Shown here piece after piece: positions 13,326 to 48,692 of a stretch of 64,000 nt of DNA. This stretch comes from Enterobacter asburiae. GTDB lineage: Bacteria > Pseudomonadota > Gammaproteobacteria > Enterobacterales > Enterobacteriaceae. Position numbers and translations under genes: made by a program. Each line of letters starts with the position of its first letter. Positions within the stretch are counted from its first letter, which is position 1. The stretch spans positions 1-64,000 of the forward strand of contig JAAQVN010000002.1 of the NCBI GenBank assembly GCA_011754535.1. The letters are read 5' to 3'. The notes beneath the pieces were generated by a model, which ran no database searches, was not told where the DNA came from, and saw only the letters and a list, made by a program, of their open reading frames with translations.

Positions 13326-13903
13326 AGTAAATGAGGGGGGTTGTAAGAGGGAAGCCGCCAAAATTTTGCGGTCTACCATTTTTAGTGATCTTTCGGAACC
13401 TCGATAACTCCATCAGCAATCCCCTGAGCCAGTCGCTCCATCCATTTCGCAAAGCGAAAATAGCCAGGTTATTGCTGGCAGATGTAGTCCATCTGCACCT
13501 TTGATGTACTGTCCATCACTCGCTTTATCGTCCATGTAGTCGCTGTTGGGAAAAAATGCCCTGTCCTGTTCCGTACAGACAGGGTGCCTTAGCAGCCAAC
13601 ACCGGAGAAATGTAATGGATAGCTATTTTAACTACACTAAAGTATAGCCGCAGGTTTTTTGCAGCCTGAAGGAAGCATCGCCCTGCATGGAGAAAAGTCG
13701 CAATTTCTCTTTCCGGGAGTCTGTGCATGCATCAACGTCCGACTGAGCCGTTCTTCTCTGTTCAGAAAAGAATTATCCTCTATTATATCGTACCAGGCAG
13801 GTACATCATTACGTAGCTTTTTTCACAGAAAGGCATGACACAGTCGTTTTGTTAATGCTCCCGCAACAAAACGCTTATCATTTATAATGTAATGAGAGTA
13901 TTC
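13326..13903. other. Gap without a recognisable gene
   Basis: No frame here looks like a real protein. A hairpin with arm CCCTGTC (13559-13584) and the AT-rich stretch 13740-13890 before the second LPMO gene are the only structures seen; the latter probably holds its promoter. Confidence 0.4.
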
Positions 13904-15013
13904 ATGAAAATTGACAAACTGGCGCTGGCACTTGCTACACTCGTAGCCAGCGGTGCTGCCTGGTCCCACGGCTATGTAATGGATCCCCCTACCCGTGCTT
14001 ATCAGTGCAACCTTGGGAAAAACACGAACTGTGGAATGATTCAGTATGAACCACAAAGCACAGAGGCCACCAAAGGTTTCCCTGCACGCCAGGTGATCCT
14101 CAACGGAATCACCATGCCAGTGGTGAGAGACGGTCAAATAGCCAGTGCAGAACACTCCCCCAACGGTAAATCAAACGGTGAACTGGATGAGCAGAGCAGC
14201 AACCGTTGGGTAAAAAATCCAATCAAACCAGGCTATAACACCTTTAAGTGGAAGTTTACCGCTAACCACCCGGCTTCCAAATTCGAATATTTTATTACCA
14301 AAAATGACTGGAACCCCGACAAACCATTAACCCGTGACTCCTTCGAATCCACCCCGTTCTGTACCGTTGACGGAGGCGGCGTAATGGTGAATGGGACGGC
14401 TACACATGAATGTGAAGTACCTGCGCATAACGGTTATCAAATTATCCTGGGCGTATGGACCGTCGCCGATACCACCAATGCATTCTACAGCGTAATCGAC
14501 GTAGACTTTGGCGGTGATAACAAACCGGGTGTAGAAGAACACCAAAAACCAGTGATTGGTCTGGCGCAGAACAGCTATGTATTTAAGCAAAAAGATGTTT
14601 CAGAAGGCTATACGCTGGATGCCTCCACAACGAAGCACGCCACGCATTATAAATGGGAAGTGATTGGGGATGACTCCGGCTTCCGGCTCAAGAAAAAAGC
14701 CGATGCAGAACCATATAAGATGCTGGAAGGTAACACACTGAGCGCCCCGCTGGCCTGGGTTGATGCGGGGCACACGGGGCACACGACTTATCGTCTCACT
14801 GTGACCAACGAATGGGGTGAAGCAAGCAAAGACATCAAGGTAGAGGTGCTCCCCGGCAAACCAGATGAATCCGGCAGCTGGAAAGAAGGTCAGAGCTATA
14901 AAATTGGTGACACTGTGACTTATAAAGGAAAAATGTACCGCTGTATCAACGGTCATACTTCAAGAGCACACTGGGCACCGGGTGACGCCGCGTCATTATG
15001 GTCTATAGAGTAA
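13904..15013 (+). CDS. Secreted chitin-active AA10 LPMO with one chitin-binding module
   Basis: ATG 13904 (after GAGAGT) is preferred over ATG 13892 because it gives a normal signal peptide (MKIDKLALALATLVASGAAWS) cut before His22. His22 (HGYVMDPPTRAYQC) and His122 (TANHPAS) form the copper brace, and NAFYSVIDVDF ends the AA10 domain near residue 205. An Ig-like domain (about 215-315) and a CBM5/12-like module (about 322-369, SGSWKEGQSYKIGDTVTYKG) follow. At 369 aa it is much shorter than the GbpA-like LPMO at 8885-10780 and not its close copy. A terminator follows directly, so it is monocistronic. Confidence 0.93.
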   Translation: MKIDKLALALATLVASGAAWSHGYVMDPPTRAYQCNLGKNTNCGMIQYEPQSTEATKGFPARQVILNGITMPVVRDGQIASAEHSPNGKSNGELDEQSSNRWVKNPIKPGYNTFKWKFTANHPASKFEYFITKNDWNPDKPLTRDSFESTPFCTVDGGGVMVNGTATHECEVPAHNGYQIILGVWTVADTTNAFYSVIDVDFGGDNKPGVEEHQKPVIGLAQNSYVFKQKDVSEGYTLDASTTKHATHYKWEVIGDDSGFRLKKKADAEPYKMLEGNTLSAPLAWVDAGHTGHTTYRLTVTNEWGEASKDIKVEVLPGKPDESGSWKEGQSYKIGDTVTYKGKMYRCINGHTSRAHWAPGDAASLWSIE

Positions 15014-17711: not shown

Positions 17712-18731
17712 CTAGTGAGGCGGCGGGGCCGTCAGCGAGAGCTGGAGCTGATACAGGTGATCGACGGCCAGCTTCTGCAGGCGGTCGTCAGAACACCAGT
17801 AGAGTTCATCTGCCGGCATGGTTTTGCGCAGGAATTCCGCCATCTCGTGAATCTGCTGGTCTTTGGGCAGTCTGGCCAGTCTGTTGGCGCGCTTGCGCGC
17901 TGCGCCCTTCTCCCGACGATATCTGAGTGCTTCAAGCGTGCGCTGCGCGTACCAGCGCTTTCTCGCCGCATGCACTGAAATCTCCTCATCCTCACGGATA
18001 ATGCCGTCCCGGATAAGCGCACGTCGCTCCTCACACTCCCTGAGTTTGCGGGTCTGCTGCTCAATCAGCTTGTCCATGTCCACGCCCAGGAGCTGCCAGC
18101 CCGTAAGAGTGATCCACACATATTTAGGCAGGCGCTTACGGGACTCTTTGTCCCAGGAAGTCTGTTCTGAAACACCAAGCACGCCGAAGCGCACTTGCTC
18201 GGCAATCAGATTTGAAAGGCGTGATACGGTGACTTCCGTGCCGGCAATGACATTCCCTTTTGCATCCTTTGGGCTGAGTTCTCTGGCCAGCCTGGAGATG
18301 CACATTCCGACCGTGTGCTTGCCTGCATCACAGAAGCTGATGAGCACCGGCCACAGCGCGTCGAGCAGACGCTGTTTTTCAGGCCTGAAGGCGTACCTTC
18401 GCCCCGCCTGCCGCCGCTTCTGGACATAAAACGGGTGAAGGGACATATGCATGCGCAAGTTGTATTCACCGGTTTCAGGCTCCTTCCGGACAAGACGGTT
18501 ATAGGCGCGGCCCAGCTGCCCACCGAGCGCCTTATAGCGGGCAGGACGGAACCAGAGAGGATTTTCGCATTTAGGTTTGGTGGAATGCTCGCCGCGATGA
18601 CGCCGTGTACGCTTCTTTTCCGGGGCTACCAGAAAAGAATCAACGTGTCCGTCATCAACGCCCTGCCAGAAATGGATTTGGTCTTCCGTATCAAGCTGAC
18701 TCCAATGAAATGGGTTAGTATTTTTACTCAC
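17712..18731 (-). CDS. repA: Replication initiator RepA, IncL/M-IncI-like, full length
   Basis: The protein is about 340 aa, starting NTNPFHWSQLDTEDQIHFWQ. The basic motif KKRTRRHRGEH, the block NPLWFRPARYKALGGQLGRA and winged-helix-like segments (ISRLARELSPKDAKGN, VTVSRLSNLIAEQVRFGVLG) fit RepA initiators of the IncFII/IncL-M/IncI superfamily. The start is either GTG 18731, which overlaps the upstream TAA as GTGAGTAA, or ATG 18746; both sit in the tail of the truncated repA1, so translation is probably coupled. It is presumably the working initiator of this replicon. Confidence 0.78.
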   Translation of the reverse strand: MSKNTNPFHWSQLDTEDQIHFWQGVDDGHVDSFLVAPEKKRTRRHRGEHSTKPKCENPLWFRPARYKALGGQLGRAYNRLVRKEPETGEYNLRMHMSLHPFYVQKRRQAGRRYAFRPEKQRLLDALWPVLISFCDAGKHTVGMCISRLARELSPKDAKGNVIAGTEVTVSRLSNLIAEQVRFGVLGVSEQTSWDKESRKRLPKYVWITLTGWQLLGVDMDKLIEQQTRKLRECEERRALIRDGIIREDEEISVHAARKRWYAQRTLEALRYRREKGAARKRANRLARLPKDQQIHEMAEFLRKTMPADELYWCSDDRLQKLAVDHLYQLQLSLTAPPPH

Positions 18732-19263
18732 TATCCCCCCCAGCATTCGACACCAGTCGGGTTTCAATCAACGCGAGCGGAGACACACCCAAAAACTCAA
18801 ATAAGCGTGGTGTAAAGGTGATTATTGAGTGAACATACTGAGTATTATTAAACTCTGACGGCGCGAGACAGGCTATAAACCCAAAATCTTCCTCAAGTGA
18901 CTTGATGGCACGAACAGCACGCTCAATGGACAAATAGCCACTAGCCGACTTTCTGGCTAATCCACATTCAAGAGCCAGCTCAGTCACTGAACGAATCACT
19001 GTATTTGATAGCGGATCATAATAGAAGCACATGGCCTTCAGCAGAGCAGATATAGCTTTACGCCGGAGTACTGGAGGTTTGCGTTTACGTTTACCACTGG
19101 CACACGAAAACGCAGAGGCGATGTCGAATGCAAATCCTTCAGTGAAACCGTCCGTTTTCTGCATCAATTTTTTACAGAATGACGAGGTCTCTTTTCCCTC
19201 CGGAACATTAAACACCGGATCAGGGTTTTGCACTTGGAGATATTGTGATAGGGGTTCAGCCAC
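18724..19263 (-). pseudogene. repA1: C-terminally truncated IncFII RepA1
   Basis: GTG 19263 overlaps the tap stop codon exactly as in plasmid R1. The 179 aa product matches the first half of IncFII RepA1 (QNPDPVFNVPEGKET, then PPVLRRKAISALLKAMCFYY, LALECGLARKSASGYLSIER, IITFTPRLFEFLGVS) but ends at 18724 where R1 RepA continues about 100 residues with basic helices. The frame is open with no internal stop, so it may still be made, perhaps as the coupling leader for the second RepA. Whether it retains function is unknown. Confidence 0.72.
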
Positions 19264-19333
19264 ACCTTCCCGCACTTATGTTGCACGGAAGGAGTAAATG
19301 GCACAGAAACGGGTATTGCAGTTTTCTGAGCAT
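19256..19333 (-). CDS. tap: Tap leader peptide (RepA6)
   Basis: The 25 aa peptide MLRKLQYPFLCHLLLPCNIS plus AGRCG matches the IncFII repA leader peptide. Its translation opens the repA ribosome site by coupling; its TGA lies within GTGGCTGA at the repA1 start. CopA antisense RNA blocks this translation. It is too short for ordinary gene calling but supported by position and sequence. Confidence 0.88.
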   Translation of the reverse strand: MLRKLQYPFLCHLLLPCNISAGRCG

Positions 19334-19350: not shown

Positions 19351-19438
19351 ATAGAGCAACAGCTTCTATACAGTTTAAGTAGGCCCCGTTAATCTCCTGA
19401 CCCGCCAAGATTAGAGAGATTATCGGGGTTTTTGCTTT
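19351..19438 (+). ncRNA. copA: CopA antisense RNA (copy number and incompatibility control)
   Basis: About 88 nt starting from the promoter at 19316-19344. The main stem-loop pairs CCCCGTTAATCTC (19384-19396) with GAGATTATCGGGG (about 19416-19428), with a loop containing CCGCCAA as in R1 CopA, and ends in TTTTTGCTTTT. It pairs with the repA leader, blocks tap translation and therefore RepA synthesis. Confidence 0.88.
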
Positions 19439-20657: not shown

Positions 20658-21455
20658 TTATTTTTTGGTATCGCCGGCAGCATGACTGATGGCCTGCTGC
20701 AGGGCCTCTGCGCTGGTGTATCCTGGGATAACCGTCACGTTATCAGCGCTGGCGCCGGCTGACGGGAGAACCACCAGGGCTGGAGTACCGCTGAAGCCCA
20801 GCTGCTGCGCAAGTGTGTTTATGCCATCCAGGGTTCCCTGAACATTTGGGGCTGTTTTCGCATCGAACTTCACGGCTTTTGCGGCCGCGCTGATATCAGC
20901 GTCGGTCAGCTTGCCCTCGTTGTGGCCGGTGGCGTAAATCGCGTTGTGATAGTTGAGGTAAGCATCGGCCCCCTTCTGCTTCCAGACCTGGAGCCCGGTT
21001 TTCGCCGCGCTGAGCGACGCCGGCCAGCGCTGGCCAAATATCGGGAATTCCTTGAACACAAAGCGCACGTTCGGGTTTGCTTTTATTACCTTTTCCAGCT
21101 CCGGCGCCAGGCGAGCACAGTAGATGCACTGGTAATCGAAAAACTCGACGACAGTGACTTTTGCGTCGGCCGGCCCATATGACGGCGTGCCTTTATCGTT
21201 CAGCAGCGCCGCCTGATTCTGAACCACGGCGGCCGTCATCGCCTGCTGCTGCTTCTCCTGCTGTTGAGCCTGCAGCTTCTGGCTGACCTCAACCAGCACT
21301 TCCGGATGAGCCAGCAGGTAGTCTTTCGCGATTTCACCAATGCGGGCTTCCTGCTCCGGGGTAAAGGCAGCGGCAGGTTTCTCTGCTGCCCCCGCCATGC
21401 CGGAGACCAGAAGGCCAGCGGCAAGCATGACTGAAAGGGTTTTATTCATGTTCAT
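20658..21455 (-). CDS. Periplasmic DsbA-like thiol oxidoreductase
   Basis: The 265 aa protein has a signal peptide (1-23), an alpha-helical dimerisation-like N-part (about 30-90, HPEVLVEVSQKLQAQQQEKQ) as in Com1/ScsC/DsbG-like proteins, then a thioredoxin fold with redox motif CIYC in EFFDYQCIYCARLAPEL and the cis-Pro loop FSGTPALVV. It should form or shuffle disulfides in envelope proteins. It may have served the now absent transfer apparatus. Confidence 0.87.
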   Translation of the reverse strand: MNMNKTLSVMLAAGLLVSGMAGAAEKPAAAFTPEQEARIGEIAKDYLLAHPEVLVEVSQKLQAQQQEKQQQAMTAAVVQNQAALLNDKGTPSYGPADAKVTVVEFFDYQCIYCARLAPELEKVIKANPNVRFVFKEFPIFGQRWPASLSAAKTGLQVWKQKGADAYLNYHNAIYATGHNEGKLTDADISAAAKAVKFDAKTAPNVQGTLDGINTLAQQLGFSGTPALVVLPSAGASADNVTVIPGYTSAEALQQAISHAAGDTKK

Positions 21456-21482: not shown

Positions 21483-22163
21483 TCAGTTCGTATCGTGTGC
21501 GGGCGCGGGTGCTTCCCTGGCCGCCCTGCGCTGTCGTTTAGCATGCTCCTGAGCCCTGCGCTCCACGGCATACGCCGCCTCCTCCTCGCTCACCGGTGCG
21601 ACCGGTTGTCCGGCAAGGTTTTTACGCCACGCGCCCACCGTCATGGCGCCCAGATACGCATCCGAGCGGGTGACTGCGGCAAGGCAGCGTTTCAGCGTCT
21701 TCACGGAAACCTCCAGCCCGCGCCGGCGAATGTCATTGACCATCGCCTCCCGGATGTTGACCGCCAGGAGCTGCGGCTGGCCGTCCGTAACGAGGGCCGG
21801 CCAGCAACGCTCCAGGAGCACGAGCGCGTCCGTCAGCGGCATAACCTTCCGGTAAACCGGTTCAAGTGCAGGCTTGCGCCTGGCCGCCCGCATGGCCTCC
21901 CGTTCCTGCGCCTGTCGCTCTGCCCACAGCCGCGCTTTTTCGGCTTTTCGGGCGGCCTTCTCATCTGCCTGCGCCTTTTTCGCGCTCTCATCCACCGCCT
22001 GCTTCCTGACCTTCCAGGCAGGAGTCGTGTTCACCACTACGGTCTTTTTACGCGTCACGGTTCTGAGCGGCTCACCCGCACTGCCTGCCTGTGGCATGCT
22101 GTTTTCATTTACATCCGACACTGGTTTTCGCCGCAGCGTCAACTTAGGGCGTTGTTCTGTCAT
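21483..22163 (-). CDS. finO: FinO-family RNA chaperone, fertility inhibition
   Basis: ATG 22163 is the only sensible start (MTEQRPKLTLRRKPVSD); the longer open frame upstream is the shadow of traX. The 226 aa protein has a basic, Lys/Ala-rich N-terminal helix (about 60-105) and the ProQ/FinO domain (about 110-195, MPLTDALVLLERCWPALVTD, LGAMTVGAWRKNLAG). FinO stabilises FinP antisense RNA against traJ mRNA. Neither finP nor traJ is in this window and the tra operon seems deleted, so it may now act on other RNAs or be idle. Confidence 0.9.
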   Translation of the reverse strand: MTEQRPKLTLRRKPVSDVNENSMPQAGSAGEPLRTVTRKKTVVVNTTPAWKVRKQAVDESAKKAQADEKAARKAEKARLWAERQAQEREAMRAARRKPALEPVYRKVMPLTDALVLLERCWPALVTDGQPQLLAVNIREAMVNDIRRRGLEVSVKTLKRCLAAVTRSDAYLGAMTVGAWRKNLAGQPVAPVSEEEAAYAVERRAQEHAKRQRRAAREAPAPAHDTN

Positions 22164-22195: not shown

Positions 22196-22933
22196 TTACA
22201 TCGCAATCAGTCCCAGCACTGCAAGGTGCACCGCGTAGAACAGCGGGAAAAACTCCTGTGGCCAGAAGCGCGGCACAAGACTGCAGGTCCGGCTCAGCAC
22301 CGACAGGGTTATTCCGGGTATTACCAGCCCCGCAACGACAAAGGCGGCGCTGTCCGCGGCATTCAGCGCGAGTATCGCCAGCGCCAGACACAGCGCTAGC
22401 CCCGTGCGCGTGGTGCGCCGGCCCGTCATACAGACGCCGCAGGCCAGCATCAGCATGACTACCCCCGCCAGCCCGTAGCTTCCCGCTGAAAACGGCAGCC
22501 AGGCCAGAACCAGCATCAGGGACAGCGGCCACGCGCGCGGCCCGTGCTGCTGTATCAGCGCCAGCGCCTGTCCGCTGACCGCAAAGGCAAACAGGATATT
22601 GCCCAGGTCCGGGCGCAGCCCGGCCAGTATCCAGCCGCCCTGCGCCACACCCGCCCATATCCAGAGCCGGTTCAGGGCGCGCTGCTGAATCTGCGGATGG
22701 CGGGCGAGGTTCATGGCCCAGACCAGGCCAAAGAGCGGAAACGCTCCCCTACCGGCAAGACGCAGCCAGTCATTATCCAGTCCGCACAGCATGCTGATGT
22801 GGTCGGCCACCATCAGCAGCAGCGCCACGGTTTTGATAAGGTCGGTCTGGCCCGGCGTCCACACAAGCAGACGCTGCAGCCAGCAGTCGGCCACCACCAC
22901 AAGAGGGAACAGCGGATGCTTTTCAGCACGCAT
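22196..22933 (-). CDS. traX: TraX, F-pilin N-acetylase-like membrane protein
   Basis: The 245 aa product starts at ATG 22933, one base after the traI stop (TGATATG) and after GGGAGGCGAC. It has TraX signatures (TDLIKTVALLLMVADHIS, GRGAFPLFGLVWAMNLARH) and about seven to eight membrane helices. In F it acetylates the pilin N-terminus. No pilin gene is visible here, so it is probably an orphan left by tra deletion. Confidence 0.9.
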   Translation of the reverse strand: MRAEKHPLFPLVVVADCWLQRLLVWTPGQTDLIKTVALLLMVADHISMLCGLDNDWLRLAGRGAFPLFGLVWAMNLARHPQIQQRALNRLWIWAGVAQGGWILAGLRPDLGNILFAFAVSGQALALIQQHGPRAWPLSLMLVLAWLPFSAGSYGLAGVVMLMLACGVCMTGRRTTRTGLALCLALAILALNAADSAAFVVAGLVIPGITLSVLSRTCSLVPRFWPQEFFPLFYAVHLAVLGLIAM

Positions 22934-22934
22934 A

Positions 22935-25900
22935 TCAGTCGCCTCCCAGGGTCTTGTCACGCTCAAGGTCTCGCACCGTTTCGCGCTCCATCTGCTGCAG
23001 GCGGTCCCGCTGCACGTTCTCACGCACCACCTGAGACACCGCCTCATCCCGGCGGCGTTCTTCCGGCGCATCCGGCAGCGTGAGGGGAGATGCCGGCGTT
23101 TCTTTTATCCGCTCCATATCCCGCACCACATCCCGGACGGCAACGTCAGCCCCACCGGCCGGCCCGTCGCCGCTGCGGGCCATCTCGCGGACCGCCTCTT
23201 CAGCACGCTTATCCAGCTCCCGCTGCACCTCAGCCTCCCGGGCCTGCTGCGCCAGCACCTCCGGCGGAACCGTCTCTCCGGGCTGCGTACCGGTGCTGTC
23301 GGGCAGGCTGTCGGCCCAGACCCGACCGCCGGTAATGGCGCCGGGGTTCCACGGTCGCGCCTCGCCTTCGAGCCGCACCACCACGCCGCTCTGTGGATTC
23401 TCCCTCGCGAACCGCACGCCCTCTTCCATATCCCGCGCCAGCAGCGACTCACCGTTACGGCTGGCCTGCAGACCCGCAAACGCCGCGTCCCCGCTGCCCA
23501 TCACCCGGCCTTCACCAGCGAGCCCCTTAAGCTGCCCGTCTCCGGAGGTCAGGGCGCTCAGCCAGACGCCCGCCTGCCTGCCGTTGCGGTCAAAAGCGGG
23601 CAGCGCCACGTGCGGCTGCGGGTATTTACGCCCCGGCGAGATAAATTTCGCCATCGAGCCCTCGGGCTGCAGCCCGGCCTGGCGCAGCGCGGCGCGACCG
23701 GCAGGCACCTCACCCAGCGCTTTAGCCGTCGCCGTCAGGCGGGCGGCATTCGCGACGACGCGGTCGCCACGCGGCTCGAGAATGTCATGCGCCGTACTTT
23801 TCGCCTGCGATTTTTCCATCGCGGCCACCCACTTATCCCGGTTGTCGGTATAAACCTGCGCGTGCTGCTTCATGCGGCTCAGCGCCACGTAGGCCGACTC
23901 GAAGCTCACCATCCGCTTACGCCCGCAGTCCGTGCCCTGCAGGGAGATGGAGAAGGGTTCGCTCGCACCCTGTGAGCCTTCAACGGTAACGGCATAGGCC
24001 AGGTCGATGTGCTGCTCTGCCTGCTCCGCTGACGGCGTAAGCGTGCGGGTCTGTTTTCCATCCGACAGCGTGACGCTGTCACCTTTTATCTCACTGACCG
24101 ACCAGACGCTGTTGGCCACGAAGCCCCGCTCGTTGTCGCTTTTCGAAAAGCGCATCCGGTCACCTTCCGACACGGTGATGGTGTCCTGACGGTAGAGCGT
24201 GACGCCCTCTGTCGCCGCCTGCGCGGGCGACAGGCTGCGGGTGTTGCCCTGCGTATCCTTCAGCGTCACCAGGTGCGCCTCCCCGTCCAGCGCCTCAATG
24301 CTGTAATACGTGCTGTCCAGCAGAACCAGGCTGTCGCGGGACGCCTCCCACGTTGCCATGCGCCTCAGCTCCCCGTCGCGGATATTGGCTGGCGTAAGGA
24401 CCGGCAGCGTGACCTCTTTTTCGCCCACCTCGCCGGCATCCTGACGGGCGTCATGAATCATGGCGTTCACCTGGCGGCGGTCGGCGTTCAGGGCGGTGAT
24501 AACGATGGTCTGCGCCTGCGCCTCCGGCGTACGCCCCGTGTAGTCCTTCACGATGGCCTCCAGCAGCGTCGCGGGCTCCCCGCCGGGCAGCAGGCCACCG
24601 GCCGCCATGGCTTTCGCGATGGCCTCCTCCCGTTCGCGGCTGAACTCCATGACCGAGCTGTCCGGCTGCCAGGCATCCGCCCTGCGCGGCACCTGTGCCG
24701 GCGCCACGCGCTCAATGGTCGTCAGGGCGCTGCCGATATCGCGGTTAATCAGGCTGTAGACGGCAGGTTTAAGCTCCGGCGTCTGGCGGACAATCTCCTG
24801 CATCACCGCCACGTCAATGGCGCTGCGCTTCTGCAGCAGGCGGAAGGGCTGGCCCGGGGCAATGGACTGCAGCTGGTCGGTATCGCCGCTGGAGACCACG
24901 CGTCCCCCGCCCCCGGCAATCAGGCTGTACGCCTTCGCCATGTCGGCGTTACCGACCATCGAGCTTTCATCCACGAGAAACAGGACGTTGCTGAAGTCCG
25001 GTCGTTCGCCGCCGCGCAGCTGCTGCTGCGTGTCGTGAATAAAGGCCGCCAGCGTCTGCGTTTCGGGTACGCCCGCATCTCGCATCTCGCTCACCGCCCG
25101 GTGGGTGGGGGCCACGCCGATAACACGCGGCTGCTCCCGTTCCGGCAGCGTGCCGATGGCCGACATGACCGCCCGGAACTGAGTGGTCTTACCCACGCCC
25201 GCGTAGCCCTGCACCAGGGTAAAGCGGTCGGGGGATTCAAGTATCATGCGCGTGGCGTTCCGCTGCCCGTCGGTCAGGCCCGCCAGCTGCGCGTCCGGAA
25301 CATTATCCATTAGCGGGGTGACGGCCTCCTTTCCCTCAAGGACGTGGCGGATAATGCTTTTTTCAGCGTTGTACGACTGGCGTGAGACCAGCAGCTGCAG
25401 GCCGTTTCCCGGCGATACCGGCACCGACAGCAGGGCGCCGCTGCGCACCTGCCGGTCCGCCTCCTTTTCGATGGCCTGCAGGCTGAGGCTGTCCTGCTCA
25501 AATTCTTTCGCGGCGGCCATCAGCTGCGGCTTCGTGAACGCCAGGCCGTTCCCCTCCAGCACCGGAATGGCCAGATGGATAGCCTGCTGCTCCGGCGTGT
25601 GCAGCCCGGCCTTCTGGTGCGCCAGGGCATCATCGAGCCTGTCATGCCCCGCCGCATCCTTAATCTGTTTGGACACGACGCTCCAGGCAGACTGACGCGA
25701 CAGCTTCTCCGTCGTTTTCTGCGCCGTCTGCGCGGAATAGAGCCGCACCGCCCGGCCGCTGAGCGCCAGTTTGTTCAGCGTGGTGTTATCCAGCTCGCGC
25801 TGCGACAGCGAGGCAAAAACCGTGGCGCTGTCGCTCACCGGGCGGCCCGGCGACTCCACCCAGCCCTGCCCCACCTTCGCGGCGGTAAACGGGCTGTCGC

Positions 25901-28118
25901 CGGCGGGCAGGATCACGTCAGCCTTACGCCCGGGCAGGCTGACGACGAGCCCCGCCTCCCCGAGGGCCTTAACGGTCACCGTATCGCCTCCCTTGAGCCG
26001 CGTCCCCTGCGCCTGACCCAGCACCGCCAGGCGGTCGCCCTCGGCCACGTGCAGCATGCCGGTGCGGTACAGCGACCAGCTGCTGTTGAGTTCAGACAGG
26101 CGGGTCACCCGCGTCTCACCCTGGGCGTTACGCAGCGTCAGGCTGTTGTTGCGGCCCGTCACGCGGTCAATGACAAAGCGTTCCCGGCTACGCTCTTCGG
26201 CATTCCAGCGCTCCATGACCATCCCCTCCCGGTAGTGGTCGCGCACCTGCTGATGGCGGCTGTCGAGCCAGACCGGCTCCAGCGTGGTGATACTGACCTC
26301 CCGCTCGCCCAGCACCTTTTCCGCCTTAAGCGCCTCGCGGACAGCGCCTGCCAGCACGGCCTGCTCGCGCGGACCTGAGACCTGCGCCACGCTGTGTTCA
26401 CCTGCGCGGACGCTTCGGGCAAAGTCAGCGGCCAGGCGGTCATACCGCTGCCGCCGGTCAGGCTCGCTGATAACCGAGACCTGCGTCTTCTCACCGCCCT
26501 GCCATGCGAGCGTGCTAACTCCCGCTTCCTTCATGACGGTGAGGGCGCTGCCGGTCCCGGTGCGCTGGCCGATGTCGGCTATCAGCAGCTGGACGTTATG
26601 GCGCAGCGCACCGTCGAGCAGCGTGAGCGTTTCTTTCAGGGTCAGCTTCTCCCCCTGGTCAACAATCAGCGTGCTGCCGGGCGTAAAGGCCATACCCTCC
26701 GTCAGCCCCCGCCTGTCGGTGATATGCTCGCCGCTGAGGCGCTCATCCTGCATAAGGGCGCTGCGCGAACGCCTGTCGGCGGCGATAATCTGCACGTCAC
26801 GCCCCTGTTCGCGCGCCATCATCGTCAGTTCCGCCACGCGCTCACGCTGGCCGGCCGCCCCGCCCTGACCCGAAATGATCGCCACCGGCGGACGGTCCTG
26901 GGCCAGGACACTCACGGCATCGCTGTATGACCGGCTGCGGGGCACGCTTTTATCCGGAAAAATGTCGGCCTGCCCCGTCCGCTGTAAATCGCGGGTCATC
27001 GCCGACACCGACAGCTCATCCAGCACGTGGATGTTCGAGGTAAACAGCCCCTTCTCTTTATCCAGCGGGATGAGCTGCTCATTTTTTATCGCCGCATCAA
27101 TGCCGTCACGCGCCATCTCCACCATGCCCGGCCGCGCGGGCAGCTGCCCGAGGGTGGTAGCCAGCAGTTCGGAATACGTGAACCGCGCCCGCCGGTCACT
27201 CAGCATCGCAATGGACTGTCCGACGCTGCTGTTAATATCAATGGCTTCAGGCGCCGTAACGGGAATATTCCCCTGCTCAACCCGCAGGTCTGCCGCCTCG
27301 CGGTAGGCTTTAATGTCAAACCCCGTCGCTTTCAGGGTCTGCATCCACTCGGCCATGCGCTGTTCGGGGTCAATCTTCTGCTTCGACTGGCGGGTGTCGA
27401 GCGCCGCCACGTCGCGGGACTTCAGGGACGCGTCATCCCCGACCGCCTCGCTGATGGTCCTGCTGCGGCTGGAATACGGCTCCGTCGGTACGCCCTTCAG
27501 CTCCCACATGCCGTGTTTGCCGACCGTCTCAGTCTCATAGCCCATCGCCGCGACGTCATCCTTCAGCGCGGCACGATACAGGCGGCCAAAGGCAATCTGG
27601 TTCGCGTAGATAACGAATCCCTCACGGCGTATCGTTTCGTCGACGTCCGGCATCAGCAGCCTCGCCAGCAGTGACTGGACGTGATACGGCGTGAAATACT
27701 GTCCGTTGCGGTCGTCGCCAAGCTCAAGCTCCATGAAGATCGCGCCGAGGAAGTCGTGGAATTTGGCCTCCAGTGCGCAGACCATCAGGCAGAAGAGCGT
27801 ATGCAGGTTGCTGATATCGCTCTCGCTGTACTTCGCGCAGATTTTGCGGCTCTGCTCAATATTCTCCGGCGTTCTTATCCGCGCCACATCCAGCTCGCTG
27901 GCGGCCAGCGTGATAAAGTCGCTGAACACCTCCCAGCGGCGCAGGCTGCGGGCGGTATCCCTGAACACGCTGATAAACTGGCGGCGGGCCTGGTCGATTG
28001 TCATCATCCGGTGCGGTATCGGCTGCGCGTTCACGGTGGGCAATACGGGTTTAGCGGGTGTTACTGGTGCGGCCTCTTTCGTCTGGTCAAAAAAGCTGGC
28101 AAAACTGAGTTGAGACAT
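22935..28118 (-). CDS. traI: Chimeric TraI: N6-methylase-like N-terminus fused to TraI helicase
   Basis: The 1727 aa reading frame starts well (AAGGAGGA before ATG 28118). From residue about 169 (VIYANQIAFGRLYRAALKDD) to the end it is F-type TraI, with Walker A GYAGVGKTTQ at about 970-979, LFLVDESSMVG, and the C-terminal region ending RDLERDKTLGGD. The first 168 residues are not TraI: they read MTIDQARRQFISVFRDTARS to DRNGQYFTPYHVQSLLARLL, the N-terminal helical part and GQYFTP motif of plasmid N6-adenine methylase-like proteins. The catalytic Tyr pair and the HxH metal site of the relaxase are therefore missing, and the methylase lacks its NPPY-type motif. Nicking and self-transfer should be lost; helicase activity could persist. 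Confidence 0.88.
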   Translation of the reverse strand: MSQLSFASFFDQTKEAAPVTPAKPVLPTVNAQPIPHRMMTIDQARRQFISVFRDTARSLRRWEVFSDFITLAASELDVARIRTPENIEQSRKICAKYSESDISNLHTLFCLMVCALEAKFHDFLGAIFMELELGDDRNGQYFTPYHVQSLLARLLMPDVDETIRREGFVIYANQIAFGRLYRAALKDDVAAMGYETETVGKHGMWELKGVPTEPYSSRSRTISEAVGDDASLKSRDVAALDTRQSKQKIDPEQRMAEWMQTLKATGFDIKAYREAADLRVEQGNIPVTAPEAIDINSSVGQSIAMLSDRRARFTYSELLATTLGQLPARPGMVEMARDGIDAAIKNEQLIPLDKEKGLFTSNIHVLDELSVSAMTRDLQRTGQADIFPDKSVPRSRSYSDAVSVLAQDRPPVAIISGQGGAAGQRERVAELTMMAREQGRDVQIIAADRRSRSALMQDERLSGEHITDRRGLTEGMAFTPGSTLIVDQGEKLTLKETLTLLDGALRHNVQLLIADIGQRTGTGSALTVMKEAGVSTLAWQGGEKTQVSVISEPDRRQRYDRLAADFARSVRAGEHSVAQVSGPREQAVLAGAVREALKAEKVLGEREVSITTLEPVWLDSRHQQVRDHYREGMVMERWNAEERSRERFVIDRVTGRNNSLTLRNAQGETRVTRLSELNSSWSLYRTGMLHVAEGDRLAVLGQAQGTRLKGGDTVTVKALGEAGLVVSLPGRKADVILPAGDSPFTAAKVGQGWVESPGRPVSDSATVFASLSQRELDNTTLNKLALSGRAVRLYSAQTAQKTTEKLSRQSAWSVVSKQIKDAAGHDRLDDALAHQKAGLHTPEQQAIHLAIPVLEGNGLAFTKPQLMAAAKEFEQDSLSLQAIEKEADRQVRSGALLSVPVSPGNGLQLLVSRQSYNAEKSIIRHVLEGKEAVTPLMDNVPDAQLAGLTDGQRNATRMILESPDRFTLVQGYAGVGKTTQFRAVMSAIGTLPEREQPRVIGVAPTHRAVSEMRDAGVPETQTLAAFIHDTQQQLRGGERPDFSNVLFLVDESSMVGNADMAKAYSLIAGGGGRVVSSGDTDQLQSIAPGQPFRLLQKRSAIDVAVMQEIVRQTPELKPAVYSLINRDIGSALTTIERVAPAQVPRRADAWQPDSSVMEFSREREEAIAKAMAAGGLLPGGEPATLLEAIVKDYTGRTPEAQAQTIVITALNADRRQVNAMIHDARQDAGEVGEKEVTLPVLTPANIRDGELRRMATWEASRDSLVLLDSTYYSIEALDGEAHLVTLKDTQGNTRSLSPAQAATEGVTLYRQDTITVSEGDRMRFSKSDNERGFVANSVWSVSEIKGDSVTLSDGKQTRTLTPSAEQAEQHIDLAYAVTVEGSQGASEPFSISLQGTDCGRKRMVSFESAYVALSRMKQHAQVYTDNRDKWVAAMEKSQAKSTAHDILEPRGDRVVANAARLTATAKALGEVPAGRAALRQAGLQPEGSMAKFISPGRKYPQPHVALPAFDRNGRQAGVWLSALTSGDGQLKGLAGEGRVMGSGDAAFAGLQASRNGESLLARDMEEGVRFARENPQSGVVVRLEGEARPWNPGAITGGRVWADSLPDSTGTQPGETVPPEVLAQQAREAEVQRELDKRAEEAVREMARSGDGPAGGADVAVRDVVRDMERIKETPASPLTLPDAPEERRRDEAVSQVVRENVQRDRLQQMERETVRDLERDKTLGGD

Positions 28119-28160: not shown

Positions 28161-28424
28161 TCAGCTAAATGCCCGCTTCAGTTCGAGCGTGCGTAACACC
28201 TGCCCCCACTCACTCCCGCGCATGGCAGGAATACGAACGGCGCGCCCCTTCTTCCGGCAGTGCGCTATGTGACGGCCCAGCGCCCGCATTTCGGCGCTGA
28301 TGTCGTCACGGTCGATATCACTGCGTTTAATACGCACCTGTTTTTTTACGGGTGCGTTTTCCGCCTCAAGCATCTGGACATACAGGGCGGTCGGTGTAAC
28401 AATCGAAACTTCACTGAATTGCAT
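28161..28424 (-). CDS. Small leading-region protein of unknown function
   Basis: From ATG 28424 (after AAGGAA) the 87 aa basic protein begins MQFSEVSIVTPTALYVQMLE and contains KKQVRIKRSDIDRDDISAEM. The longer open frame upstream of this start has no ribosome site. It lies 43 bp before the chimeric traI gene and was presumably co-transcribed with the methylase that donated the fusion. Confidence 0.65.
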   Translation of the reverse strand: MQFSEVSIVTPTALYVQMLEAENAPVKKQVRIKRSDIDRDDISAEMRALGRHIAHCRKKGRAVRIPAMRGSEWGQVLRTLELKRAFS

Positions 28425-28509
28425 TGGTTTGTTCCTTTTGGTGAAGGCCGGATTAATCGTTCCTAGGCGTCTAATCCGGCGGGTTAAGGCAGGCGAAAGC
28501 CTGCTTTTC

Positions 28510-28854
28510 TCATTTCTGGCGCTGCACTCCCTCCTTAACGCGTGCCAGAATCTCCGCGTGGTCAAGGTTGCTGTAGTCACGCATCCGGTAATAACGGATA
28601 CCGATCCGCGCGTAGATTTCGGTCACATTGCCGCAGACCATTTCCGCCATCATGAAGGTTTCACACTCGCCGTCTTCACTGCTGCACCAGTTCATCGGGT
28701 ACATCAGGCCCAGTGCATCATGGAAGGCGTGAACGTCGATTTCGACGGGCGCGGTCAGGTATGACTTTTCGCGGCTCAGCCAGTACGCGCGTTCGGCCTC
28801 ACTGGTCGCGTAAATACCTGCTTCGGCACTGGATTCGGTCAGATTTAAGTGCAT
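28510..28854 (-). CDS. Conserved plasmid protein of unknown function
   Basis: 114 aa, acidic, starting MHLNLTESSAEAGIYATSEA after GGAGATAA. No signal peptide, membrane segment or known motif is visible. Position within the same-strand chain of leading-region genes supports it as real. Confidence 0.68.
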   Translation of the reverse strand: MHLNLTESSAEAGIYATSEAERAYWLSREKSYLTAPVEIDVHAFHDALGLMYPMNWCSSEDGECETFMMAEMVCGNVTEIYARIGIRYYRMRDYSNLDHAEILARVKEGVQRQK

Positions 28855-28900
28855 GGCTTATCTCCTTCTGGTTAATGGCGTTGATATTTCGCCGTGGTGG

Positions 28901-29188
28901 TTATTCGTCGAACGTGATGCCGGAAAAATGCGCCATCAGGTGCAGCATGTCGGCAATCTCGTCGACTTTCTGCTGAATGGCTGGCGTGGCTTTCAGGATG
29001 CGCGTGACAGCGGTTCTGAGTTCGCCCATATAGCGGTTTGCAGACTCGCCCAGCGCCGTTTTGTCCGTATTGCTCTGGTACTTCATCAGGGCTTTACTGA
29101 CGTGGTTTTGCAGGGTATCAAGCTCGCTGAGCGCGCTTTTCTCCCATGCGTCGAAGCTGAACGTACTGTTCGTGTTGCTGTTGCTCAT
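28901..29188 (-). CDS. Small acidic helical leading-region protein, unknown
   Basis: 95 aa, starting MSNSNTNSTFSFDAWEKSAL, predicted almost wholly helical (KSALSELDTLQNHVSKALMK, AIQQKVDEIADMLHLM). It belongs to the minus-strand series running toward traI. No function can be assigned. Confidence 0.62.
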   Translation of the reverse strand: MSNSNTNSTFSFDAWEKSALSELDTLQNHVSKALMKYQSNTDKTALGESANRYMGELRTAVTRILKATPAIQQKVDEIADMLHLMAHFSGITFDE

Positions 29189-29241
29189 AATGTTTCTCCG
29201 TTGTGACTGGCGGCATCCCCTGCCGCCAGCCGGTTAAGTAA

Positions 29242-29616
29242 TCAGTAATCCGCCGCCAGCTCGATCATCAGGTCAGCACATTCACCATCGGCACGTTCTT
29301 CTTCCGCAGTCGTCAGCATGTAACCCCGTTTCTCTGCCGCCCCCATAAACACAGGACGGTCTTTCAGTGGCAGTTCTGCCAGGTAGTGCATAGCCATACC
29401 CAGCAGACGGGACTCATAAATCTCGTAGTGCAGGCCACACCCCCGGTTAGCCTGTATTTCCATACGGGCCAGCACCACGTCCGCGCGAATAACATCGAAC
29501 GGGTTACGGGAATGGATATTGCGCACAAAGCCATCAGTACGCAGGGACGAGGTTTTCACCCATCTTTCGGTAGATTCTTTGGTGGCGGTTTTGACGTTGA
29601 CGTTTTGTGTGTTCAT
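29242..29616 (-). CDS. Leading-region protein, unknown
   Basis: 124 aa starting MNTQNVNVKTATKESTERWV and ending ADGECADLMIELAADY. A conserved-looking core (RNPFDVIRADVVLARMEIQA) and lack of shadow-gene composition support it. It follows the 0.4 kb repeat-bearing gap below and may be expressed from it. Confidence 0.65.
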   Translation of the reverse strand: MNTQNVNVKTATKESTERWVKTSSLRTDGFVRNIHSRNPFDVIRADVVLARMEIQANRGCGLHYEIYESRLLGMAMHYLAELPLKDRPVFMGAAEKRGYMLTTAEEERADGECADLMIELAADY

Positions 29617-29717
29617 CCTGCTTTTCCTCCTGTCTGGTGGTTAATCCATCTCTCGGTGAGTTCCCTGGCGGCAAAGGGCAAAGGAGCAACGGCGGGGCGG
29701 CAGGAGAAGGGCGGAGA

Positions 29718-29751
29718 CAAAAGTTTTTGCGATCCTTCGCAAAAACTTTTG
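29718..29751. other. Perfect 15 bp hairpin
   Basis: Arms CAAAAGTTTTTGCGA (29718-29732) and its complement (29737-29751) with loop TCCT, no T-tail beyond the arm. It sits in the 422 bp gap 29617-30038, which holds no gene. Confidence 0.7.
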
Positions 29752-29880
29752 GCGGAGTGCATTTCACCCTTCGGATGACGACACGGCGGTGCTACGACAA
29801 CCCCTCCGCCCGGGGACTTAACGGGAGAGGGCTCGCCAGAGGTACGGGGAGAGGATGAACACACCCGACACGGCGGAACG

Positions 29881-30058
29881 ACGGGGCGTCAGAGGACTGT
29901 CGGCAGTTTTACCGCCGACAGGGTGAAGCGGCGCGTCCGTTTACGGACGCAGCAAGCGCAGGGGTTGACGTTGCGTCAGGATGGATGCCCGGAGGGCGGA
30001 GACGGTTTACCGGCTCCGTTCACGACAGCCGTGTCCCGTCAGGGACGACGCCCGGATA
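29881..30058 (-). repeat. GC-rich leading-region repeat, second family, copy 1
   Basis: Imperfect match to 34700-34957: shared blocks around CGCAGCAAGC, TTGACGTTGCG, CCCGGAGGG/CCCCGGAGGGG and CGACAGCC..CCCG(T/C)CAGGGA. Both copies lie between genes and contain several hairpins. Such elements in F-type leading regions can act as promoters on single-stranded incoming DNA; that role is inferred here. Confidence 0.5.
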
Positions 30059-30491
30059 TTGCCGTAACGGTGATGCCAGCCAGTTCATTAGCCAGCCCCG
30101 CCAGCGTGTACCGTTTTTTATCCAGCACATCAGCCCGCAGCAGCAGGCTGTTTACCAGAAAGGTATCCAGTACCGGCATTCTGAGCAGACATTTAATCCG
30201 CTGTCCGCTGGCTGACTGAAGCAACAGCATCCAGTGGTCACAGACTTCGCCGGGGCTGGTCAGCATGAACCAGTGTCTGCCATGCGGTGGAACATACCGC
30301 AGGCTAACGGGCCATACGCCACCGTATTCAGTGTGATTCTCGGGTGAAACCACCCTGCCCTCCGGCAAAACCAACTCCCGCAGCACGGCCTGCGTCAGCA
30401 CCTTACGAGAAGACCAGCCATCAGAGCGAAACTGCTCATAATCCTCCGGCGTCATGGCAACCAGCGCCGATAATGTCAGTCCTTTATTCAG
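30039..30491 (-). CDS. Diverged second PsiB-like protein, probable CTG start
   Basis: The 150 aa reading frame aligns without gaps to the psiB product (31621-32052) from residue 1: LNKGLTLSALVAMTPEDYEQ against [20 protein letters not shown], then LTQAVLREL against LTHAVMRDL, and YGGVWPVSLRYVPPHG against [16 protein letters not shown]. No ATG or GTG precedes this; CTG 30491 lies 6 nt after AGGAGG and exactly at the PsiB Met position (in-frame TTG 30572 lacks a site). PsiB binds RecA and blunts the SOS response during plasmid entry. The C-terminus diverges, so it may have another partner. Confidence 0.7.
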   Translation of the reverse strand: MNKGLTLSALVAMTPEDYEQFRSDGWSSRKVLTQAVLRELVLPEGRVVSPENHTEYGGVWPVSLRYVPPHGRHWFMLTSPGEVCDHWMLLLQSASGQRIKCLLRMPVLDTFLVNSLLLRADVLDKKRYTLAGLANELAGITVTAISGRRP

Positions 30492-30575
30492 AATCAGCCT
30501 CCTTTTATTGCTGCAGACTACGACTGCTCTCCGGCTCCTGCAGCCCTGAAGATTTCCAGGGGATAATAACAAAAC

Positions 30576-30899
30576 TCACCGGTGAGACTTCCCTCGATAA
30601 TAGTCCGGTCGCGCCGCAAGTTCCTGCCCGATGAGTTCATCAGCAAACAGCGGCGCAATTCTGTTAACACGACGCGCCAGATTCCGTCGGCGGGTGGCAG
30701 CCTTACGCTCGTCGGTCCAGCGTCTGATCTGTCTGTCACACAGAAAATCAATGCAGACAGCATATCCGGCTCCGGCAACCCACAGTGACATCACGGACTC
30801 AGGGGCGGGCTTCCCTGCCTCCACCACTTCTGACGCCAGTTCAGGCTCACCAGGACAGGGACCAGGACGCTTCCAGCGCAGTGAGTAACGCCACTTCAT
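30576..30899 (-). CDS. Small protein downstream of psiA, unknown
   Basis: 107 aa, Arg-rich, starting [20 protein letters not shown] and containing IRRWTDERKAATRRRNLARR. Its ATG overlaps the psiA stop (ATGA), so it is the third gene of a coupled psiB-psiA operon. No domain is recognised. Confidence 0.72.
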   Translation of the reverse strand: MKWRYSLRWKRPGPCPGEPELASEVVEAGKPAPESVMSLWVAGAGYAVCIDFLCDRQIRRWTDERKAATRRRNLARRVNRIAPLFADELIGQELAARPDYYRGKSHR

Positions 30900-31624
30900 A
30901 CCCGCCCCTGTATTGTCAGCTTGTTGGGTACCATCCAGCGCTCCAGCTGCCTGACAGACTCAGTGCTTTCCCTTGCCAGCGCATCCGTTTCAGCCATCAC
31001 CATCCAGAAAGGCTGACTCTCCATCGTCCAGCGCTCCATTGGCTCCAGTGACGGGAAACGTTCGCTCCAGCGCCAGAACATCTCCTCCAGGTCGTACTGG
31101 CGCAGTTCAGTCCCCGACCAGCGCGCGCTCCAGCTGCCGACCGTTTCAGGCGTATGGAATGCCAGCTCTGTCTCCGCCTGCCCCGCCAACGCCTGGTAAG
31201 CCCGCTCACGCTGACACTGTTCCTTGTGGCGCTGGCGGGTGTATTTTTCATCCCGCAGCGCGGCCTGACAGCGAACCCGCTCGGTCTGCTGAAAGGCCAC
31301 CTCCGGAAAGAGGCGCTGACCCGCACCAACGGGAAGCGGCAGCCAGCAACGCGTCCCGCGACTTTCAATCAGCGCATCGATGGCACTGAGCCAGCTGTCC
31401 CTGCAGCCCCGCAGCTCCCGCGCCGTCAGCACCGGCGCAAAATGATGGATTTCCCTGAGTGAGATGCGTGTGCTGCCCGTGAGTCGCCGGAAAAAGGCGC
31501 TGGCATACGGATACATCGTGGACACCGCGCCGCGCGACCGCCTGCGTTCAACCTCAGCGATAGCCTCCATCGCGGCGCGTCGCTCAGGGCTGAAGGGAAC
31601 CAGTGACAGGTTTGCAGGTATCAT
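30896..31624 (-). CDS. psiA: PsiA, plasmid SOS-inhibition-locus protein
   Basis: 242 aa from ATG 31624, which overlaps the psiB TGA as ATGA; the longer upstream frame is a psiB shadow. Features shared with F PsiA include [33 protein letters not shown] and the C-terminal [14 protein letters not shown]. Encoded with psiB in F and IncI leading regions; its own biochemical role is unclear. Confidence 0.9.
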
Positions 31625-32052
31625 GCCGCGCCCTCCGCTGCCAGAATACTGATGATGCTGGCCTGACTGTATCCGTCCGCATCGAGACGCGCAGTCAGGC
31701 TGACGGTGTGGCTGACAGGCTCCGGCTGGTAGCCGCTCAGGGTACGAATGACGGAGAACGGGCGACCGCTGGCGGGAACGAACACCACCATCCACGCCGG
31801 GCTGATGGCACCAGGACTGCACACCGCCAGATGGAAGTTGCCGTGTGAGGGCGTAAAGCGAATTTGCACAGGAAAGAACCCGCCGAATTCACTCCGGTAT
31901 TCACCGTTCATGTCCCAGTTTTCAGGGCAGGACAGGTCACGCATGACGGCGTGGGTCAGTTCGCGGCGAAAGTCCTCGCCGCTGTCGCGCCAGTCCTCAA
32001 ACTCATCACAGGACATCGTTTTCAGTACATCGGGGGTCAGAACAGTTTGCAT
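31621..32052 (-). CDS. psiB: PsiB, SOS inhibitor
   Basis: 143 aa, matching F PsiB (144 aa) throughout: [55 protein letters not shown]. PsiB binds free RecA and prevents SOS induction when single-stranded plasmid DNA enters a new host. It follows the large ParB-like gene by 42 bp and is coupled to psiA. Confidence 0.94.
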
Positions 32053-32094
32053 AACTATCTCCTTATTGCCGCCCCGCAGGGCGGCTCTCCGTTA

Positions 32095-34104
32095 TCAGGC
32101 GGCGTGTGCCGTGTTGGTGGTGTCGTTGTCAGTCCTGTCGGTATCTGAAACAGCGTCGTCAGCATCGGCCTTACCCGCTGGCTCAGACCCTTTCAGCCAT
32201 GCCGGAACCCAGCGTTTATGCTGCATGAAGTGCTCCGCATGCGCTGCTGCATCGCCCTTCTTCATCTTCTCCGCGTCACCCGCAGCGCCCGTCAGCCCCG
32301 CCTCTTTCAGGGAGGCCACAATCTGCGGATGTTTCAGGCTGCCGAAGTAGTTGTCCTTCGTCGGCTGCCACCAGTCGCGCAGGTGGAAGCCGATTGCCGC
32401 CTCGACCGTATCGAGGGTACTGCGCGAGGTGTGCCCCATATCGCGGGTCTGTACCCCGTCAACGGAACAGGCCGTGCAGAAGGCCATCAGCGACATCAAC
32501 ACCCCGCCGTCAAGGGCAAAGAAGGTGGTGAAGTCCTTCTCCCACCCTTCCGGCAGCAGGGCTTTCAGCCTTGCCTGTTCGGTCATCAGGATGTTAAACG
32601 CTGCGCCATCCTTACCGGACGGGGCGTTCTCCGTCAGGCTGCCGTGGGACACGGTCAGGCTGATACGGAACGGGTGCGTCGTGGTCAGACAGCCTGAAAA
32701 TACGCAGGTACACATGCGCCAGACCATCAGCGCCACCGCCTTTTCGGGCTGCTGCATCAGCGCCGCCTGGACTGCCAGCGTACGCTCGCAGGTCATTTTC
32801 GTGAGCAGCGGGACGCTGATCCCCTCTGCGGCGTCGGGCTGGCGTGAGGTGAACGACACCGTTACGCTGCTGGTTTCGGTTTCTTCCGTCATATCCGCTT
32901 TCAGGCGCACACCGCGCTGCACATACACCTGCCCTTCGTACAGGCTGACCATCACCCCCGCGCCTGACTTCATGTCGTCAGTCCACGCGCTGACTTCTCC
33001 CGCCGTCTGAATAGCGAGGATATCCGCTTCGATCGCATCCGACTCGTCGCAAACGCTGTCATATGTGTCGTACTGCTCCCGCAGCGCATCAAGACACTGC
33101 TGCTGCTCAAGGGTGTATACAGGCTCGGGTTCAACAGGCTGAGCGAACTCCTTACCGTCTTCGCCGTGGTACCAGATGCGGGCTGCGCGTCCGCGACCCC
33201 ATGCCCAGCCCTCACGCTGCCGAATGTCCTGCGCGATACGCTCCAGCTTCTCCTGCACCAGACGCTCAACCAGCACGCTGTCTGCCGTGCCGTCGCCCTC
33301 GTCCTGGCTGAACAGATCTTCACGGACGTAACCCCCTGCCGCCTCATACGCTTCGCGCCCAATAAACCGGAATTTGGTGTTGTCGGTGCGCATCTCGGTT
33401 TCGGTAATGGCGCGTTTAATCAGGTGTGCGGGCGCGTTCGACCAGCTGGCCTTCACGCTTTCAAATACATCTACCTGACGGGCAGGATCGTCCTCGAGAC
33501 AGAGCGCCTGACACTGCTCAACGGTCAGTTCGTCCTGCGCGAGCTTATCCATCAGTGACGGCGCCAGGTTTGCCAGCTTCAGCATGCGCTGCACGTGACG
33601 GGAGCCGAAGCCGAGCGCATCGCCAATCTGAGAGGGGGTTTTGCCCTGCTCTGCCAGCGTACGGAAACCTGCGATCTGCTCTGCCGGATGCATGGCGGCG
33701 CGCTGCTCGTTCTCAGCGATGGAGGCAAGGGCAGCAATGTCGTCTGAGACGCGTTTCACCATGACGGTATGATCGGCCGCAAGACGGTCTTCCTGCGCCA
33801 GCAGATTCAGGGCAGTCAGTCGGCGGCCACCTGCGGCCACGCCGGATTGTCCGTCCGCGAGGGTGTGAACAATCAGGTTCTGCAGCAGTCCGAGCGCTTC
33901 GATGGAGTCAGCCAGACCGCGAACGCTGTCCACGGAATACGGGATAGTGCGCACGTTCAGCGGGGATTTAGCGAGACTGGACAGCGGAACATACTCGATG
34001 ACAGCGGCCTCAAGGGCGACCTTCAGGGCTTCTTCCTGCGCCTTCGTGATTTTTTTGCTGCTCGCTTTTTTGGGTGCTTTTGCTTTAATATCGGTTACTG
34101 ACAT
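32095..34104 (-). CDS. Large ParB/Spo0J-domain leading-region protein
   Basis: 669 aa. The N-terminal 230 residues hold a ParB nuclease-like domain (YVPLSSLAKSPLNVRTIPY, VAAGGRRLTALNLLA) and a KorB-type HTH (KTPSQIGDALGFGSRHVQRM). The long C-terminal part has no known domain and an acidic tail (DADDAVSDTDRTDND). This is the conserved leading-region protein of F and IncI-like plasmids, not the partition ParB, which is encoded at 43162-44139. It likely acts early after conjugal entry; the exact role is unknown. Confidence 0.88.
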   Translation of the reverse strand: MSVTDIKAKAPKKASSKKITKAQEEALKVALEAAVIEYVPLSSLAKSPLNVRTIPYSVDSVRGLADSIEALGLLQNLIVHTLADGQSGVAAGGRRLTALNLLAQEDRLAADHTVMVKRVSDDIAALASIAENEQRAAMHPAEQIAGFRTLAEQGKTPSQIGDALGFGSRHVQRMLKLANLAPSLMDKLAQDELTVEQCQALCLEDDPARQVDVFESVKASWSNAPAHLIKRAITETEMRTDNTKFRFIGREAYEAAGGYVREDLFSQDEGDGTADSVLVERLVQEKLERIAQDIRQREGWAWGRGRAARIWYHGEDGKEFAQPVEPEPVYTLEQQQCLDALREQYDTYDSVCDESDAIEADILAIQTAGEVSAWTDDMKSGAGVMVSLYEGQVYVQRGVRLKADMTEETETSSVTVSFTSRQPDAAEGISVPLLTKMTCERTLAVQAALMQQPEKAVALMVWRMCTCVFSGCLTTTHPFRISLTVSHGSLTENAPSGKDGAAFNILMTEQARLKALLPEGWEKDFTTFFALDGGVLMSLMAFCTACSVDGVQTRDMGHTSRSTLDTVEAAIGFHLRDWWQPTKDNYFGSLKHPQIVASLKEAGLTGAAGDAEKMKKGDAAAHAEHFMQHKRWVPAWLKGSEPAGKADADDAVSDTDRTDNDTTNTAHAA

Positions 34105-48588: not shown

Positions 48589-48692
48589 TCTGCAGTTCAT
48601 ATACCTGTTGATAACTTACTAATTCTTCTTGTGAATTTCGGTGCCTCATGCCAGTATGTGGGGGATTCAAAAACACCCACACGGTGAAGGCA

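Follow-up and report, generated by a model that had tools for sequence, protein, structure and literature searches.

An open reading frame (ORF) of 1727 codons on a plasmid of Enterobacter asburiae joins the start of a leading-region N-6 DNA methylase gene, in frame, to the TraI gene of F-like conjugative plasmids. This chimeric ORF (22935..28118, minus strand; 1727 aa, ATG start) lies in the window, by which we mean the whole stretch of DNA analysed, which covers bases 1–64,000 of contig C2 (111,006 bp); the genome comprises two contigs, measures 4.96 Mb and is given as 100% complete. Very probably, the ORF arose when an F-like conjugative plasmid lost about 27 kb, from the leading-region methylase through the origin of transfer (oriT) and the tra operon to traI codon 188. 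A single deletion is the simplest reading, and the hybrid gene is most likely a mere scar of transfer-gene loss, probably without a function. The case maps one clean step from a conjugative to a non-conjugative F-like plasmid, with the exact joint still visible.

Structure of the chimeric ORF

The ORF runs through all 1727 codons in one uninterrupted frame. Its residues 1–169 (27612..28118, minus strand) are the start of the methylase, a protein of 276 aa in the intact plasmid pNFYY328-4 (L014, NZ_CP141649), and residues 170–1727 plus the stop codon (22935..27611, minus strand) correspond to TraI 189–1746, that is, the relaxase tail, the helicase-associated domains, the AAA helicase and TraI_C. 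By tblastn, identity is 97.0% over methylase residues 1–169 and 96.9% over TraI 178–1746, an alignment that slightly overruns the true joint. The joint itself (27611..27612, minus strand) was placed by base-level comparison with pNFYY328-4, which stands in for the actual parent and is about 97% identical to the ORF at the protein level. Going down the coordinates along the minus strand, the match to the methylase parent persists to 27611 and that to the TraI parent already begins at 27612; the TA is common to both, a 2-bp microhomology that rests on this relative. Methylase codon 169 runs straight into TraI codon 189, and residue 170 is I189 of TraI. A first-pass annotation had recognized both parents and put the joint at about 27606–27614, in agreement with the base-level position, but its division of the protein (1–168 and 169–1727) falls one residue too early. 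No insertion sequence (IS) or IS remnant is present at the joint.

The sequence 5′ of the ATG on the same strand, taaggaggaactATG, resembles a ribosome site and was inherited from the methylase gene; the open frame is as the first-pass annotation described it. Promoters and terminators near the ORF start showed no excess over shuffled sequences. Since any such joint keeps the frame one time in three by chance, frame retention is by itself not strong evidence. Within the TraI part, a stretch on the opposite strand (25260–25332, plus strand) scores 27.1 bits (E 0.78) with AS-traI, the Rfam family antisense to traI, which is below the threshold of 99.

Of the TrwC relaxase domain, Pfam recognizes just the tail in the chimera (profile positions 180–285 of 286); in intact TraI the match spans positions 1–285. 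The residues lost with TraI 1–188 of pNFYY328-4 include NYYTDKDNYY and HDTSRDQEPQLHTH, which we take to be the catalytic tyrosines and the metal-binding histidines of the relaxase, and both are absent from the ORF. The chimera thus lacks the N-terminal tyrosines and histidine triad of a MOBF (TraI/TrwC) relaxase. Its helicase domains are kept: the full F-type TraI set, PF22232, PF18272, PF18340, PF13604 and PF07057, scores above cut-off, and residues 163–1727 align with 180–1756 of PDB 5n8o. Compared with F-type TraI (PDB 5n8o, 9f0x), it is alike over 180–1756 of 5n8o and differs in that TraI 1–188 is swapped for the methylase fragment. That fragment breaks just before the DPASGAAG stretch, from which point everything is gone. 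The intact methylase matches PF02384 at 137–238; in the chimera this profile gave no match at E up to 1, the methylase fragment has no Pfam match, and the S-adenosylmethionine-binding and catalytic region of an N-6 DNA methylase is missing. Judged from its domains, the predicted product, if translated from the methylase start, would be a helicase that can neither nick DNA nor serve conjugation. The earlier proposal of a helicase without relaxase is therefore right as to domain content, while a function for the chimera found no support. Annotation calls for caution here, since what is labelled TraI or MOBF relaxase may turn out to be a relaxase-less hybrid of this sort; typing mobility from the mere presence of TraI would hence be misleading.

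The lost segment and its proposed removal

In pNFYY328-4 and in pK516_NDM1 (L003), the leading region points toward the tra operon and ends with the N-6 methylase, an antirestriction gene and a transglycosylase gene, after which come traM, the FinP RNA and the tra genes. Further downstream, pNFYY328-4 has traD, traI, traX, finO, a DsbA gene, a phospholipase D gene and the IncFII replicon. The oriT carries no annotation in these records; its place in F-like plasmids is on that side of the transglycosylase gene which faces traM. In intact relatives, then, oriT and the tra operon lie between the two parent genes, as had been supposed from the window alone, and in pNFYY328-4 the two joint points are 27,107 bp apart, a distance that takes in the oriT side, traM, FinP and traY to traD. 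Because this segment includes ISKpn26, the length lost in the chimera's own ancestor may differ.

We compared 23 pNFYY328-4 proteins singly with C2 (E 1e-3), the remaining Tra proteins of that plasmid lying outside this set. Seven matched, all encoded by retained genes: TraI from residue 178, TraX, FinO, methylase 1–169, PsiA, PsiB and the ParB-like protein. The other 16, all from the lost segment, had no match: the antirestriction and transglycosylase proteins, TraM, the hypothetical protein between traM and traY, and TraY, A, L, E, K, B, V, C, U, N, H and D. FinP, which in the two relatives tested barely exceeds its threshold of 45 (46.3 and 45.1 bits), was not found in C2 at threshold, nor at E up to 1. 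Compared as DNA, the lost segment has a single 143-bp match in C2, at 29915–30056; this stretch is closer to a copy in the retained part of pNFYY328-4 (94%) than to the copy in the lost segment (87%), so it need not be a remnant of that segment. The suspected loss of the oriT side and the tra operon is therefore supported on this contig, where neither the oriT side, nor the tra genes tested, nor FinP was detected. As a separate observation, the leading-region repeat at 29915–30056 (142 bp) occurs once in C2, and the stretches from pNFYY328-4 and pK516_NDM1 give three matches apiece; a 149-bp palindromic repeat is described in the leading region of pMccB17 (PMC10912980).

The first-pass annotation held that a complete tra region elsewhere on the same molecule would undo its reading. 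Across the whole genome, the sole match to the TrwC profile is the chimeric ORF, with none in the chromosome, and PF03432 and PF02534 have no match, in a search that did not cover MOB classes beyond MOBF and PF03432 or unrelated oriT types. Among 59 distinct predicted C2 proteins scanned with Pfam, far from all of those on the contig, there is, the chimera aside, no relaxase, coupling or secretion-channel protein. Pulling the other way is one weak chromosomal match to PF10412, over cut-off at 21.4 bits and covering 45 of 387 positions. We infer that the plasmid is no longer self-transmissible; its ancestor probably could transfer itself.

That ancestor would have been an F-like conjugative plasmid with an IncFII backbone, whose relatives PLSDB types as MOBF. 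The deletion would have started inside the methylase gene, passed through oriT and the tra operon and ended at traI codon 188; the break would have been joined by illegitimate, short-homology recombination, not by an IS, and the two cut ends would have met in frame by chance. On this account, traX and finO would owe their survival to their position between traI and the replication region, past the right end of the deletion. A history in several steps, such as an IS-mediated deletion with later loss of the IS, or recombination after a deletion in some other plasmid, strikes us as unlikely: insertion sequences do occur in relatives, IS903B adjoining the methylase in pKTa005_3 and ISKpn26 lying inside the tra operon of pNFYY328-4, but the joint here has no IS remnant and a 2-bp overlap only.

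Two further plasmids bear on how such segments are lost. The plasmid pCRE18_2 (NZ_CP075347, L012), of the same lineage, carries two tra deletions, one of them starting in the same methylase gene. Its joints (L012 14940–14950 and 19309–19314) show 2-bp overlaps, TA and TG, against pNFYY328-4, and no transposase is annotated alongside. It differs from the present plasmid in that the methylase end meets the traP/traC region and traC to traW are kept; the second deletion runs from traW into traI and leaves a TraI remnant of 571 aa that starts much further in than the chimera's. In pKTa005_3 (L013), IS903B follows the methylase, and the stretch of pNFYY328-4 from there onward into traD is missing at that place. 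All three joints of the lineage, one here and two in pCRE18_2, have 2-bp overlaps, and no IS is annotated or visible at any of them. This hints at short-homology joining as one way in which tra genes are lost, although three cases prove no rule.

Rarity of the joint and constraint on the TraI part

A record was counted as carrying the joint if a place in it covered 80% of a 300-bp joint query or if the exact joint was present; the collections searched may leave out records of this genome or of one very near it. In PLSDB, none of 251 matching records in near mode and none of 4358 in distant mode spans the joint, and neither does any of 17 matching E. coli genomes. The exact 20-base joint pattern has no occurrence in genome_contigs or in viral_contigs. 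Within the genus, 7 of 61 genomes show any match and one, the source genome itself, has the joint; the same single genome carries it among 392 of the family, with up to 2 mismatches allowed. A protein search with residues 1–230 gave 296 matches, and the 120 listed cover 29–37% of the query region; in none of these 120 does the methylase start belong to a long protein, nor is there among them an intact relaxase with the same N-terminus, which the first-pass annotation had named as the finding that would speak against it. When the helicase and relaxase parts of TraI were used as separate tblastn queries, each returned at least 5000 records; at 95% identity or more, the matches listed comprise 194 records for the helicase query and 193 for the relaxase query, two sets not shown to be identical, so relaxase loss looks rare in this plasmid lineage. 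The titles and abstract openings listed in literature searches contained no mention of a methylase::TraI fusion.

A joint seen in this genome only, and known from the assembly alone, invites the thought of an assembly error. We regard this as highly improbable, given that C2 is one of two contigs in a 100%-complete assembly, that the lost proteins tested do not occur elsewhere in C2 and that the chromosome has no second TrwC. A 27-kb collapse at a 2-bp overlap would also be unlike the usual collapse at repeats.

Losses of this general kind are known. One survey reports that group A F-like plasmids lack, in at least 25% of cases, some gene deemed essential for conjugation, and that small F-like (MOBF12) plasmids have undergone a massive tra deletion with traI, traX and finO kept; their relaxases are truncated in some, and that of pCFSAN029787_01 has no N-terminal domain (PMC5102898). 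C2 shows the same pattern, with the tra genes and oriT side missing and part of traI, traX and finO kept beside an IncFII replicon, and the chimera is a further case of these already described tra-deletion remnants. The remnants in that survey measure about 15 kb and come from Shigella and E. coli, and its consulted part mentions no in-frame partner; here the contig is 111 kb. The unusual features are a partner from the other side of oriT and the retained frame.

In-frame fusions of an upstream tra gene with TraI also occur in the protein collection searched, namely in P0025 and P0115 (TraD::TraI), P0048 (TraG_N::TraI, the TraG assignment being based on a listed PF07916) and P0116 (TraC::TraI). 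Unlike the chimera's, their partners come from inside the tra operon. TraI starts near residue 174 in P0025, 162 in P0048 and 137 in P0115; all three are without the N-terminal tyrosines and additionally without inner parts of TraI, P0115 retains the histidine motif, and P0116 retains nearly the whole relaxase (from residue 10).

Constraint on the TraI part was judged from private changes, meaning codons at which a single sequence departs from a state shared by all the rest. The ratio of nonsynonymous to synonymous private changes is 10:7 in the window TraI versus 48:110 over 11 other copies (Fisher p 0.028). Adding the frame-broken copies L030 and L036 brings the others to 49:116 (p 0.026), and a seven-sequence version gives 11:8 for the window. 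Mutation alone predicts 70–74% nonsynonymous changes, and the window TraI has 10 of 17 (59%). The traX gene shows the same lean, 6:4 versus 9:22, which is not significant (p 0.13). Identical copies were removed before counting in traX (three), finO (four) and dsbA (three). These sequence comparisons weakly suggest relaxed constraint on traI. The traI copies of pWP8-W19-CRE-01_2 (L030) and pEn718_IMI-2 (L036) have 7 and 1 indel bases relative to L025, and no traI is listed in the stretch concerned.

Several observations weigh against a scar without function. The TraI part has no stop and no indel across 1558 codons, and its pairwise ratio of nonsynonymous to synonymous substitution rates (dN/dS) with six relatives is 0.12–0.15, much like the 0.10–0.16 among the relatives. 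No shift like that in TraI is seen in finO (1:3 versus 11:17, over 85% of the gene) or in dsbA (0:3 versus 6:9), and other TraI copies also have high ratios (8:10 in L028, 13:18 in L034). The private-change statistics, moreover, come from copies that share ancestry and from four genes without correction. The low pairwise dN/dS mostly reflects time before the deletion but gives no sign of decay. The ORF would still be open mainly because the event was fairly recent and the frame happened to be kept.

The same intactness could be read as the mark of a new helicase, selected for use outside self-transfer, for example in plasmid maintenance or in interference with related plasmids. The frame is open over 1727 codons behind a ribosome-site-like sequence, the helicase domains are intact, and finO and traX are still open. 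We give this reading little credence, in that the junction is found once only, in its own genome, an in-frame joint is expected in a third of cases, and the TraI private changes lean to relaxed constraint, a pattern more in keeping with a deletion scar than with a selected helicase.

Retained neighbours and replicon

Downstream of the chimera, traX (22196..22933, minus strand) encodes a 245 aa homologue inside the ORF 22196–23071, with a PF05857 match and 92% identity to TraX of pNFYY328-4. It is followed by finO (21483..22163, minus strand; 681 nt), identified by PF04352 and tblastn, whose length equals that of the annotated finO of L027 and L028; relative to L025 it has a 2-base insertion that is also in L013, L027 and L028. 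Profiles and tblastn thus uphold the view that both genes persist as orphans. Orphan FinO might in principle act on the FinP-like RNAs of co-resident plasmids while the relaxase-less helicase competes with the TraI of related plasmids, and the two would then form an interference module lowering the transfer or copy number of co-resident plasmids; we consider such a module decidedly unlikely. FinO of a Salmonella virulence plasmid is reported to bind an RNA from a cohabiting plasmid (PMC8136791).

Next comes a DsbA-family gene (20658..21455, minus strand), which also comes after finO in the intact relatives, and then the CopA antisense RNA of the IncFII replicon (19351..19437, plus strand; Rfam RF00042, 81.7 bits). 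Upstream of the chimera, the remaining leading region (28161..34104, minus strand) holds small ORFs, a second PsiB-like ORF, psiA, psiB and a ParB-like gene, in the same gene order as in L002 and L003.

The IncFII RepA homologue (window 18724–19275, minus strand; 183 aa) covers only positions 6–170 of 275 of PF02387 and matches residues 9–171 of the 287 of pNFYY328-4 RepA at 51%. It may be truncated, and a Rep3-type initiator (window 48648–49388, plus strand) may be the working replicon. C2 also carries two YhgA-like (Transposase_31) genes, at window 46984–47913 and 60099–61049 (both plus strand). Its cargo is suggestive of chitin or arthropods: chitin-binding modules accompany LPMO_10 in two of the proteins, GbpA_2 domains occur in three more, and there are also an inverse autotransporter of 2237 aa, a GH18 protein and an M60 enhancin-like peptidase. 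These lie at window 8885–10780 (minus strand) and 13892–15013 (plus strand) and at C2 84502–91620, 95082–101795, 103485–105998 and 107960–110962 (L015, L016).
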